Below are positions 13,287-48,389 of a stretch of 64,000 nt of DNA, piece by piece; position 1 is the stretch's first letter, and each line of letters begins with the position of its first letter. A program made the position numbers and the translations under genes. The notes beneath the pieces are model-generated. The model ran no database searches and had not been told where the DNA came from. It saw only the letters and a list, made by a program, of their open reading frames with translations. Origin of the DNA: Cupriavidus taiwanensis LMG 19424 (GTDB taxonomy: Bacteria > Pseudomonadota > Gammaproteobacteria > Burkholderiales > Burkholderiaceae). Where the stretch lies: positions 1,172,001 through 1,236,000 of the forward strand of contig NC_010530.1 in assembly GCF_000069785.1 (NCBI RefSeq), written 5' to 3'.

Positions 13287-13539
13287 GGGAAGCACGTTGA
13301 AAGGATGCGGTGTCGTTGTCAGGCAAGCCAAGGGGGAAAACCGCCGCATGCAGCGCCCCAGGTCTGCCTCCATACCCTATTTGTAGTACACCGGAAGGCA
13401 CGCTGCGCAAGCCTGATGTGACCGGCGCCACGGCGCGGACAAGTATGCGCGGCGCACGCCAGGGCCATCGTGACAAAGCACAATCGTGCTAACATGCGCG
13501 GGCCGGTGCCGGCCGCCACGGCCAGTCCGGTTACGTTAC

Positions 13540-13688
13540 GTCTTCAGGGCGGGGTGAAAGTCCCCACCGGCGGTATGCCGCGACGCGCAGCGCGCGTCCG
13601 GCGAGCCCGCGAGCGCTCGCATTCCCGTGCGAGGTCAGCAGACCTGGTGAGAGGCCAGGGCCGACGGTCATAGTCCGGATGAAAGAAG
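13540..13688 (+). ncRNA. FMN riboswitch (RFN element)
   Basis: The conserved FMN aptamer blocks are all visible in order: tcttcagggcggggtgaaag near 13541-13560, CCCCACCGGCGGTAT at about 13562, AGCCCGCGAGCG, GGTCAGCAGACCTGGTGAGA near 13633, and GGCCGACGGTCATAGTCCGGATGAAAGAAGA near 13660-13688. It lies upstream of ribB, the usual target. Binding of FMN would shut down riboflavin synthesis gene expression. Confidence 0.97.
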
Positions 13689-13739
13689 ATGAACGGAGCT
13701 CGCCCGCATGGCCTGGCGCTTGCCTGGCCGTGTGGTTTG

Positions 13740-44982: not shown

Positions 44983-45627
44983 ATGAGCCGCGAGACCTCC
45001 GCACCGCCCGCGCGGACGACTTATCGACATGGCGACCTGCGCCGCGCGCTGCTCGACGCCGGCATCGACCTGGCGCGCGAGGGCGGTCCCGACGCCATCG
45101 TGCTGCGCGAAGCGACCCGGCGCGCCGGCGTGGTACCCAATGCCGCGTACCGGCATTTCGCCAGCCGGCAAGACCTGCTGCAGGCGGTGCGCGCGTGGGC
45201 CTTGTCTTCGCTGGCAATCGCCATGGAGGCCGAAATCGGCGGGCTGCGCCCAGGACGCGGCGCCGCCGCGCATGCGCGCGCCTGTTTGCGTGCGGTGGGC
45301 ACCGGTTACCTGCGCTTTGCCCTCACGGAGACCGGCCTGTTCCGCACCGCGTTCTCAGTGCCCGATGCCGTGGAAGACGACGCCGACCCGGCCAAGGCAG
45401 GCAATAGCGGCCTGAACCCGTTTCAACTGCTGGGCGCGGCGCTGGACCAGCTGGTGGAAGCAGGCGTGCTGCCGGCCGAGCGGCGCCCGGGCGCCGAATA
45501 TCTGGCGTGGTCGGCCGTGCACGGCCTGGCAATCTTGCTGATCGACGGCCCCTTGCGCAGCCGCGCCACCGAGCAGGCCGAGGTTCTTGGCCAGCGCGTG
45601 CTCGATATGGTCGAGAAGGGCCTGTAG
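44983..45627 (+). CDS. TetR-family transcriptional regulator
   Basis: 214 residues; N-terminal TetR HTH (about 14-60; RRALLDAGIDLAREGGPDAIVLREATRRAGVVPNAAYRHFASRQDLLQAV) and a C-terminal ligand domain with a TetR_C-like pattern (ALTETGLFRTAF, LAWSAVHGLAILLIDGPL). Effector and target unknown; no oriented partner gene is adjacent, so autoregulation through the upstream palindromes is likely. Confidence 0.92.
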   Translation: MSRETSAPPARTTYRHGDLRRALLDAGIDLAREGGPDAIVLREATRRAGVVPNAAYRHFASRQDLLQAVRAWALSSLAIAMEAEIGGLRPGRGAAAHARACLRAVGTGYLRFALTETGLFRTAFSVPDAVEDDADPAKAGNSGLNPFQLLGAALDQLVEAGVLPAERRPGAEYLAWSAVHGLAILLIDGPLRSRATEQAEVLGQRVLDMVEKGL

Positions 45628-45678
45628 CAAGGCCCTTCCCGACGGGCCTGTATCGACCGACCCCTGCTGCCGCGGCAT

Positions 45679-45797
45679 AAAAAAATGCCACGATGGCGGG
45701 GACCATCGTGGCAACGTAAGGAGCCAGGAAGGGGGGCAACCTGGCTCTGTCGGGCACCCAGGGTCGGGTGCAGAAACAATGTATTCCGTTGTTTCTC
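45679..45797 (-). ncRNA. Candidate small RNA with four hairpins and C-rich loops
   Basis: On the minus strand, 5' to 3': stem GAAACAA/TTGTTTC (45795-45789 with 45779-45773), stem GCACCC/GGGTGC with loop GACCCT (45771-45766 with 45759-45754), and stem GAGCCAGG/CCTGGCTC with loop TTGCCCCCCTT (45747-45740 with 45728-45721). Last comes a terminator stem TGCCACGATGG/CCATCGTGGCA (45713-45703 with 45696-45686) followed by T7 (45685-45679). No minus-strand gene lies upstream for 880 bp, so the terminator is unexplained unless a transcript starts here. C-rich loops are a feature of sRNAs that pair with Shine-Dalgarno sequences. Confidence 0.6.
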
Positions 45798-45803
45798 ATA
45801 TGA

Positions 45804-45846
45804 ATATCGGACACTTCTTAAATATGCTTTTATTTTGTCCCGATAT
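45804..45846 (-). promoter_or_regulatory. Inverted repeat flanking the probable promoter of the candidate sRNA
   Basis: ATATCGGACA (45804-45813) and TGTCCCGATAT (45836-45846) are arms that match except for one extra base. They enclose a 22-base AT-rich segment immediately upstream of the sRNA candidate. No clear -35/-10 pair could be assigned; an activator- or repressor-controlled promoter is a reasonable guess. Confidence 0.4.
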
Positions 45847-45983
45847 AGGCACCCGCACGCCCCTCGCTTGCCCTGGCATGCCATGCCGTGGCGAAGCACC
45901 GCGGAATGCAGGCCGAGCCGCGTGGTCTAACTTCCGGGCCTGGCAGGTCCGGCAGGCCGAACGCTGACGGCGCGGAGGGCATC

Positions 45984-46316
45984 ATGCAATACGGAATCGG
46001 AGTGATCGTGGTCGCCGCCGCCCTGGCAGGGTGCGTGGCGTATCCGTATGCCGGGGACCCGTATCCGGCATATCCCGGCTACACAGTGTCGACGCCGTAC
46101 TACCAGGCCTATCCGGCCTACCCCGCGTATCCGGCGTACGGCTATCCGTACTACCGTCCATGGCCTGCCTATGGCAGTTTCGCGTTCATTTACGGCGGCG
46201 GCGGACACGGTGGTCATTGGCACGGCCATGGCCACGGGGGGCGAGGTGGCTGGCATGGCGGGCATGGCGGCGGGCATGGCGGGGGCGGCAGCAGAGGCGG
46301 CGGGAGGGGGCACTGA
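45984..46316 (+). CDS. Small lipoprotein with Tyr/Pro repeats and Gly/His tail
   Basis: 110 residues; ATG 45984 has GGAGGGC upstream. A hydrophobic start with lipobox ALAGC (Cys17), then Tyr-Pro-Ala tandem units (AYPAYPAYPAYGYPYY), a short hydrophobic patch, and a Gly/His-rich tail (HGGHWHGHGHGGRGGWHGGHG). The tail could bind transition metals. Similar low-complexity envelope proteins occur in Burkholderiaceae without known function. Confidence 0.8.
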   Translation: MQYGIGVIVVAAALAGCVAYPYAGDPYPAYPGYTVSTPYYQAYPAYPAYPAYGYPYYRPWPAYGSFAFIYGGGGHGGHWHGHGHGGRGGWHGGHGGGHGGGGSRGGGRGH

Positions 46317-46597: not shown

Positions 46598-47023
46598 CTA
46601 GGGCAGCTGGCGCAGCTGACCGATGACGGACATCAGCCGCCCGTGCGCGACGATCACGCCGGACTCGTCTTGCAGCGCTTCCTGATAGCGCTTGCGGAAC
46701 CCGGGATCGGCCCCGTCGCTGAAGAGCTTTTCCGCGGCGCGTCCGACGGCACGGCAGGTGTCGTCGTGGTGTTCCTTTGCCTCCAGCTCTTCGTCGATCT
46801 CGATGATCAGGCGCGACAGCGGGTCGAGCCAGCGGAAGTAGTTGTCTTCAGTCACCAGCTGGACAAACAGGCCGGCCGGAATCGGCCCGTTCAGCCGTTC
46901 ATACTGTGCCCGGTCATAGCCGATGACTTCCTTGTGAACCTGCAGCAGGGCCGCGCGCAGCGCCTTCAGGCCTGAGCGGCGCGTTTCCTGCGTGGCGAGG
47001 AATTGTTCGTTGGGCATGCCCAT
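46598..47023 (-). CDS. Conserved-looking helical protein of unknown function
   Basis: 141 residues from ATG 47023 (CGGAGAG upstream; ATG 47017 also possible). All-helical pattern: ETRRSGLKALRAALLQVHKEVIGYDRAQYERLNGPIP, VTEDNYFRWLDPLSRLIIEIDEELEAKEHHDD and IVAHGRLMSVIGQLRQL. No signal peptide or membrane segment. I do not recognise the family. It ends 23 bp from the small plus-strand gene. Confidence 0.7.
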   Translation of the reverse strand: MGMPNEQFLATQETRRSGLKALRAALLQVHKEVIGYDRAQYERLNGPIPAGLFVQLVTEDNYFRWLDPLSRLIIEIDEELEAKEHHDDTCRAVGRAAEKLFSDGADPGFRKRYQEALQDESGVIVAHGRLMSVIGQLRQLP

Positions 47024-47267: not shown

Positions 47268-48389
47268 TCACGGCCCCTCGCTGGCATCCGGCGCCAGCAG
47301 GTCGGCCGCGCGTGAGCGCCGTGCATCGGCCGCGCGGAAATAACGGACCACTGTCGACACGCTGGCGTGGCCGGTCATGGCCATGGTTTCTGCGAGCGGC
47401 ACCTGCTGCGCCGCGGCTTCCGTGACAAAGCCCGAGCGCAGCGAATGCGCGGAATAGTCGCCATCCAGCCCCGCCAGCGCGCAGCGCGCCTTGACGATGC
47501 GGCTTACCGCCGCATCGGACAAGCCTTCGCCCACATGTCCGCCGCGCCGGATACGGCGAAACAACGGGCCGCGGTCGATTCCGGCGGCGGCCAGCCATGC
47601 CTCCAGGGCCTGTCCGGCGGCACCCGTGACGGGCTTGGCGATGTCGCTGCGCTCGCTGCCTGACTGGTTGGTCTTGGACCAGCCCATGACATAGACAAAG
47701 TCCCCCGGACCCACGCGCGTGAGGTGATCCATCGTGGCGCGCGCGACTTCCGAGCGGCGGCGTCCGCCGCTGGCCCAGGCGAACAACAGCAGCGCGCGGT
47801 CGCGCAGCCCGGCCAGTGTGTCATCGCAGGTATCCAGCAGGCGCAGCAGCGGCGCGCGCGTCAGCGCGGCCTTGCGAGCCTGCCGGTGTCCGCGGCGCGC
47901 GTAGGCGCGACGGGTGCTGGCCATCAGCTCGCGCACGCTGGCATCGGCGCATGGGTTGGGCAGGCCTTGCAGCCGGTGGGCCTTGGCGATGACCGCGAGC
48001 CGGTGGGTCAGCGTGGACAGCGCGGGCGGGCCGGGTCGCGCCTTGCATCCATCAGCGACCAGCGCCTGGTCGATGGCCGCGGGCATCTCGCAGACCGGGC
48101 CCTGCGGCGTCTGGCGCGTGGCGTGGTCGACGATGAACTGGATAACGACGGCAGGCGCGAGCGGAAGCCGCACTGGCTGCCGATAGCGCAGGGCATACCA
48201 GGCAGACCAGTAACGCAATGCGGAACGGTAGCTTGCCACCGTGTTTCGGGATTCACCTTCCTGGCGCAACGCGTTGGCCGCCTGCTCGGCGAGAGGATCC
48301 AGTTGGGACGTGCGGAGTGGGGCCGGTAAGTCGACATCAGCGGGAATCGGTGGGAAATAGGTCTCGTGGGCGTCGCGGATTTTAATCAT
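47268..48389 (-). CDS. Tyrosine recombinase / phage-type integrase
   Basis: 373 residues: an N-terminal SAM-like core-binding domain (about 30-170) and a catalytic domain with the full set of residues: Arg211 (SGGRRRSEV), Lys239, His315 and Arg318 (AHSLRSGF), His341 (TGHASVSTVV) and nucleophile Tyr350 (VVRYF). It resembles the recombinases found beside kfrA on plasmids and in genomic islands. It diverges from kfrA across a palindrome-rich, unusually AT-rich 113-bp gap. No attachment-site repeats were seen. Confidence 0.92.
   Translation of the reverse strand: MIKIRDAHETYFPPIPADVDLPAPLRTSQLDPLAEQAANALRQEGESRNTVASYRSALRYWSAWYALRYRQPVRLPLAPAVVIQFIVDHATRQTPQGPVCEMPAAIDQALVADGCKARPGPPALSTLTHRLAVIAKAHRLQGLPNPCADASVRELMASTRRAYARRGHRQARKAALTRAPLLRLLDTCDDTLAGLRDRALLLFAWASGGRRRSEVARATMDHLTRVGPGDFVYVMGWSKTNQSGSERSDIAKPVTGAAGQALEAWLAAAGIDRGPLFRRIRRGGHVGEGLSDAAVSRIVKARCALAGLDGDYSAHSLRSGFVTEAAAQQVPLAETMAMTGHASVSTVVRYFRAADARRSRAADLLAPDASEGP

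Follow-up and report, generated by a model that had tools for sequence, protein, structure and literature searches.

An intact intrinsic terminator on the minus strand of the 64,000-nucleotide stretch analysed here (the window), part of C3, a contig of 2,502,411 bases in a genome of three contigs and 6,476,522 bases, raises the question of which transcript it ends. Its hairpin (SL3, 45686-45713) combines a covarying, 100% complementary stem of 11 bp (45686-45696/45703-45713) with the loop UCCCCG, and is followed by a T7 tail at 45679-45685, read from the sequence in the minus-strand order 45685-45679. As the sequence-only reading had pointed out, no minus-strand gene lies upstream within 880 bp; the nearest ORF there that looks like a gene has its end at 46598, some 885 bp off. 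Since the plus strand carries no T-run after the stem, we rejected a role as terminator of the convergent TetR gene. A long U-tailed intrinsic terminator is a trait of Hfq-dependent trans-acting sRNAs, and in the window the 11-bp stem and T7 tail provide it.

Folding of 45670-45830 yielded z = -6.5, with 0 of 200 shuffles equally good, and together with covariation and the R1 and R2 scores points to a predicted sRNA of ~94 nt and three hairpins (45679-45772, minus strand). R1, made from relatives, scores the window's own element at 105.1 bits, and R2, which also takes in the window sequence, at 98.7 bits. To judge from a -10-like element and from where structural conservation stops, the 5′ end would lie at about 45772. 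The first hairpin, SL1 (45754-45771, minus strand; GCACCC-GACCCU-GGGUGC), has a covarying stem of 6 bp (45766-45771/45754-45759) and a loop that is not kept: its variants among family members include GACCCU, GGCCCGC, AUCCCGC and UGCAA, the last in 12 of 43 members by eye, and the C-rich SL1 loop that the sequence-only reading pointed out is thus no general trait. SL2 (45721-45747, minus strand; GAGCCAGG-UUGCCCCCCUU-CCUGGCUC) displays a perfect 8-bp stem (45740-45747/45721-45728) that covaries and a C-rich loop that is kept, reading UUGCCCCCCUU in RNA letters and TTGCCCCCCTT as DNA.

The sequence-only reading had described four hairpins, with three perfect stems bearing C-rich loops ahead of the terminator. 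SL1, SL2 and SL3 are borne out, whereas the 5′-most hairpin (AGAAACAA/TTGTTTCT, 45772-45796, minus strand) is perfect in this genome, yet just 4 of 43 members keep at least 7 of the 8 pairs; we therefore rejected the four-hairpin structure and place this stem outside the RNA. The -10-like hexamer (45778-45783) falls inside it, and the hairpin is probably promoter DNA rather than transcript.

Comparison of family members indicates that the structure is under selection for pairing. An alignment of 27 distinct members has 98.3% of its pair cells intact and two-sided changes in 19 of 25 pairs (SL1 6/6, SL2 8/8, SL3 5/11), figures that lean towards the structure because the alignment was fitted to it; the covariation score, 0.359, exceeds both the shuffled mean of 0.129, where the shuffles leave relatedness in, and the scores of slid versions, none above 0.057. 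With plain MAFFT on 17 members, two-sided changes appear in 5 of 23 pairs. The SL2 and terminator stems vary while their C-rich loops stay: of the 43 members, 41 keep CCCC in the SL2 region and 38 in the terminator hairpin. The stems, on whose conservation in related genomes the sequence-only reading had made itself depend, are indeed conserved there, and the covarying stems, conserved promoter region, terminator and C-rich loops together uphold its view of a non-coding RNA gene. Two members have a decayed look: L045 (G069) has lost part of the terminator stem, and L098 (G075) SL1 and much of SL2.

Upstream of the predicted start, the consensus of 43 aligned members reads TTTa.Ga..t.TCCGAT.ttC..aTgAGAa.c..C..aaTAcA.T. 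It contains the predicted -10-like element TACATT (45778-45783, minus strand) and a conserved box, TTTAAGAAGTGTCCGATATTC (45802-45822, minus strand), near -43; the constancy of both is partly by construction, as the hexamer and the TCCGAT-like box were in the pattern that located all 43 members. The box harbours a partial dyad, TNNGA-N4-TCCGA, matched in 33 of 43 members and extended to a perfect palindrome, TCGGAATATTCCGA, in L083. We infer here the site of a predicted activator that would cover the -35 region, in a layout reminiscent of NarL/FixJ-type response-regulator sites. No second site for the full box was found in this genome at up to 3 mismatches. A sigma-70 consensus scan detected no promoter, a null result that fits an activated promoter and equally fits no promoter. 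On the plus strand, GGAAT (45903-45907) is followed after 17 nt by GTCTAAC (45925-45931), upstream of a small ORF at 45984, an arrangement resembling an ECF-sigma promoter; by eye, the reverse complement GTTAGAC recurs upstream of many members.

The family was accepted in 43 of 60 genomes of Cupriavidus (genus g1 of the genome searches) after the weak matches had been read, including the two decayed members. A first DNA search hit 17 of 60 relatives, every one of them among the 36 same-genus genomes and none among the 24 others. Within the genus, a DNA search matched 35 of 60 genomes, of which 27 gave long matches with identities of 72% and above, G077 a long match at 66% and seven the terminator only; R1 matched 45 of 60 at E <= 0.05, and R2 added G027. 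Places dropped on reading were two in G028, second places in G014 and G019 and weak ones in G066, G024 and G020, while second places in G007 and G017 proved to be an unrelated terminator and those in G026, G074 and G083 fell outside the set read. At ~1495-1535, L018 and L019 share nothing with the element beyond a similar stem, GCCACGATGG, which belongs to an unrelated terminator.

In a draw from the family, R2 at E <= 0.01 matched 39 of the 50 same-genus genomes listed (G028 was then dropped) and 12 of the 299 non-genus genomes listed, a 50 to 299 split that rests on the order among the genomes listed. Three of these 12 were read, the best match (G338) together with G318 and G239, and were rejected as plain terminators; the other nine all have E >= 1e-3. 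A draw from the order gave 3 matches in 250 genomes at E <= 0.001, two of them in Cupriavidus and the third, unread, in G506. The plasmid collection searched contained no match to the element. The RNA is conserved in Cupriavidus, and probably specific to this genus and functional there, as far as comparison of genomes can tell.

A convergent gene for a TetR-family regulator (PF00440, PF13305; 44983-45627, plus strand) is a frequent neighbour of the sRNA and not part of it; the closest named relatives of this gene are from Cupriavidus. Among the best 80 of 399 named loci with TetR relatives, the element is present in 13 (E below 1e-7), all from Cupriavidus by title, including C. necator, lacunae, numazuensis, pinatubonensis, laharis, agavae and plantarum. 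Six Ralstonia loci (L125, L127-L130 and L132) had no such match within 2.5-kb flanks, the only one listed having E 0.26 (L128); L118, titled Ralstonia, is not among the six and was taken as G010, a member of the genus with the RNA elsewhere on the contig. Six fetched loci (L079-L083 and L085) keep the RNA and have no TetR gene within ~1 kb, so a function tied to TetR was rejected; in four of them the RNA and a TetR gene appear to lie ~15-39 kb apart on the contig. Elsewhere in the window, a 373-aa ORF at 47268-48389 (minus strand) resembles a tyrosine recombinase by eye, and an FMN riboswitch scores 105.5 bits at 13536-13694 (plus strand).

We propose, with reasonable though far from full confidence, that the element encodes a free-standing, trans-acting Cupriavidus sRNA with few targets, expressed from an activator-driven promoter and using its SL2 loop on ribosome binding sites (RBSs) with G-tracts. 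According to this model, a DNA-binding activator would recognize the partial dyad over the -35 region and turn the promoter on, and the RNA would probably be held by Hfq at its U-tail. The SL2 loop, perhaps together with the terminator loop, would then pair with G-tracts at the RBSs of a small number of mRNAs, whose translation would fall.

Candidate targets were sought in 263 ORFs that a simple script identified over 464 kb of this genome, a set that takes the first ATG as the start, so that some starts are wrong, and that excludes ORFs below 200 codons and hence pilZ. A G5 tract within -20..-1 occurs in 1 of the 263 genes, nuoF (identified by TIGR01959, complex I), and such a loop therefore implies few targets; a narrow set of G-tract RBSs is possible. 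The nuoF RBS is perfectly complementary to the SL2 loop of the window over 11 nt, with a duplex energy of -21.9 kcal/mol compared with -16.4 for the next of the 263 genes. A search of five genomes for the exact loop complement returned 22 places, against 6 for the reversed pattern; among the 22, 5 are the element itself and 4 the nuoF RBS (in 4 of the 5 genomes). A looser, ATG-anchored pattern gave 27 places against 4 for its reversed control, which does not keep RBS-likeness; ten of the 27 belong to three genes, nuoF and a pilZ-domain gene in 4 of the 5 genomes each and a LysR-type regulator in 2, and 15 of the remaining 17 start ORFs of at most 100 codons that are probably not genes. In the part of the genome examined, nuoF is the best candidate target and the pilZ-domain gene the second.

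Wider comparison leaves the target part of the model weak. Of 15 genomes whose loop is UUGCCCCCCUU, 14 have the exact 11-nt match at nuoF; so do 5 of the 6 whose loop is of the UUGACC type, although this RBS suits the other loop type and the fit there is incomplete. Among 15 genomes without the RNA, 10 have GGGGGACAAG at nuoF and one (G028) the full match, and over 58 genomes the nuoF RBS is G-rich with or without the RNA. Likewise, the pilZ-domain gene, readable in 52 of 53 genomes, carries AAGGGGTCAG in 7 of 9 readable genomes without the RNA. Because RBSs of this sort are also seen where the RNA is missing, nothing points to co-evolution, and the targets do not track the loop; the analysis of 58 and 52 genomes leaves nuoF and pilZ unsupported as co-evolving targets, and we treat them as leads only.

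This lack of tracking, along with the depletion of the loop for RBS matches and the conservation of two loops of similar sequence, is what one might expect if the C-rich loops bound a protein or another G-rich RNA, as a sponge or by titration, instead of the RBSs of mRNAs. We know of no protein that reads CCCC loops in beta-proteobacteria. The experimentally studied C-rich-loop RNA B11 pairs with mRNA (PMC10470900), and we regard a sponge as an unlikely, if serious, alternative to a trans-acting sRNA with few mRNA targets.

Considerably less credible is the proposal of the sequence-only reading that the loops pair with ribosome binding sites in general and make the RNA a global anti-Shine-Dalgarno (anti-SD) regulator. 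The C-rich loops as such suit this proposal, and several diverged members carry CCCCUCC, which is nearer to the 16S anti-SD. Over the 263 genes, however, the SL2 loop matches at least 5 nt in 16 windows at RBSs, 21 in coding sequence and 24 at -60..-40, compared with a median of 40 RBS windows for shuffled SL2 loops, and the UUGACC-type and diverged-type loops match 11 and 14 RBS windows against shuffled medians of 30 and 29. The 16S anti-SD string, used as positive control, matches 61 RBS and 16 coding windows, a count of 61 that 19 of 200 of its own shuffles also reach. Because the loop is depleted for RBS matches relative to shuffles and the anti-SD string performs better, we rejected a generic anti-SD function. 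According to this negative test, a run of C in a loop is by itself no anti-Shine-Dalgarno signature.

A shade less probable still is a reading that gives the element no role in trans, and in which it would be a mere leftover terminator or else a terminated 5′ leader or attenuator belonging to some minus-strand transcript. A strong terminator in an intergenic gap convergent with TetR would agree with such an origin; yet the minus-strand ORFs beyond the element overlap the TetR gene in this genome, SL1 and SL2 covary, and the element and its promoter region are kept where the neighbour differs. That the region is coding, for example through the minus-strand ORF 45323-45814, whose frame is open in this genome, can practically be dismissed, as RNA lengths differ among members by non-multiples of three, these frame-shifting indels disfavour translation, and the changes in the stems are compensatory.

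Against known families, the narrow-target sRNA proposed here stands apart, as no Rfam family was matched to its standard by the element; among 11 other members the best hit was Atu_C7 in L105, with 22.1 of 45 bits. The closest likeness is to the 6C/B11 sRNA (RF01066) of mycobacteria and other actinobacteria, likewise a short RNA with two C-rich hairpin loops, either of which in B11 represses a reporter with six guanosines in its 5′ UTR (PMC10470900). The weak RF01066 match spans both C-rich hairpins (45681-45751); at 21.1 bits (E 1.2) it falls well short of the gathering score, 47, and 11 other members have no match at E <= 1. The two C-rich loops of 6C are present in most of our members (41 and 38 of 43 with CCCC), a resemblance only: 6C/B11 belongs to another phylum, no shared ancestry is shown, and the second loop of the element is the terminator loop.

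Betaproteobacterial double-hairpin RNAs (RF02278) share short, stable hairpins with the element. In Burkholderia cenocepacia this family comprises toxic small RNAs (ncS03, ncS05, ncS27 and ncS62) with a CU-rich unpaired stretch predicted over RBSs (PMC5688073). This genome has five RF02278 matches at E <= 0.001 (L020-L024), 2 over the cut-off and 3 below, none of them at the element, and none at E <= 10 within 45600-45950. The five carry UGUCUCCUC near the 5′ end, which the element lacks, and no CU-rich stretch complementary to ordinary RBSs was found in it, its SL2 loop scoring below shuffled loops. Multi-hairpin Burkholderiales sRNAs are represented by ncS54 (RF02871), whose model scores 16.5 bits where gathering requires 43 and covers no more than 45680-45727, and by ncS35, compared by description: in B. 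cenocepacia the latter has three hairpins when processed and is described as occurring in Burkholderia and not in other lineages (PMC5760752). On this analysis, our best guess is that the element resembles the mycobacterial 6C/B11 RNA and not a general anti-Shine-Dalgarno RNA.

For C. metallidurans, 35 putative sRNAs have been reported (PMC7563307), and the element may already have been detected among them. The matches listed in our literature search included no characterized trans-acting Cupriavidus sRNA and no description of the element. Cupriavidus species are model hosts for metal resistance, growth on hydrogen and CO2, bioplastics and nodulation. More speculatively, and in our estimation doubtfully, the sRNA may have converged on the 6C/B11 design, with its two C-rich loops addressing rare G-tract RBSs that include those of nuoF and the pilZ-domain gene; if so, respiration and surface or c-di-GMP behaviour would be linked to the signal of the activator that reads the upstream box. 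A family with covarying stems in 43 of 60 genomes offers a well-defined start for experiments and, possibly, a proposal to Rfam.
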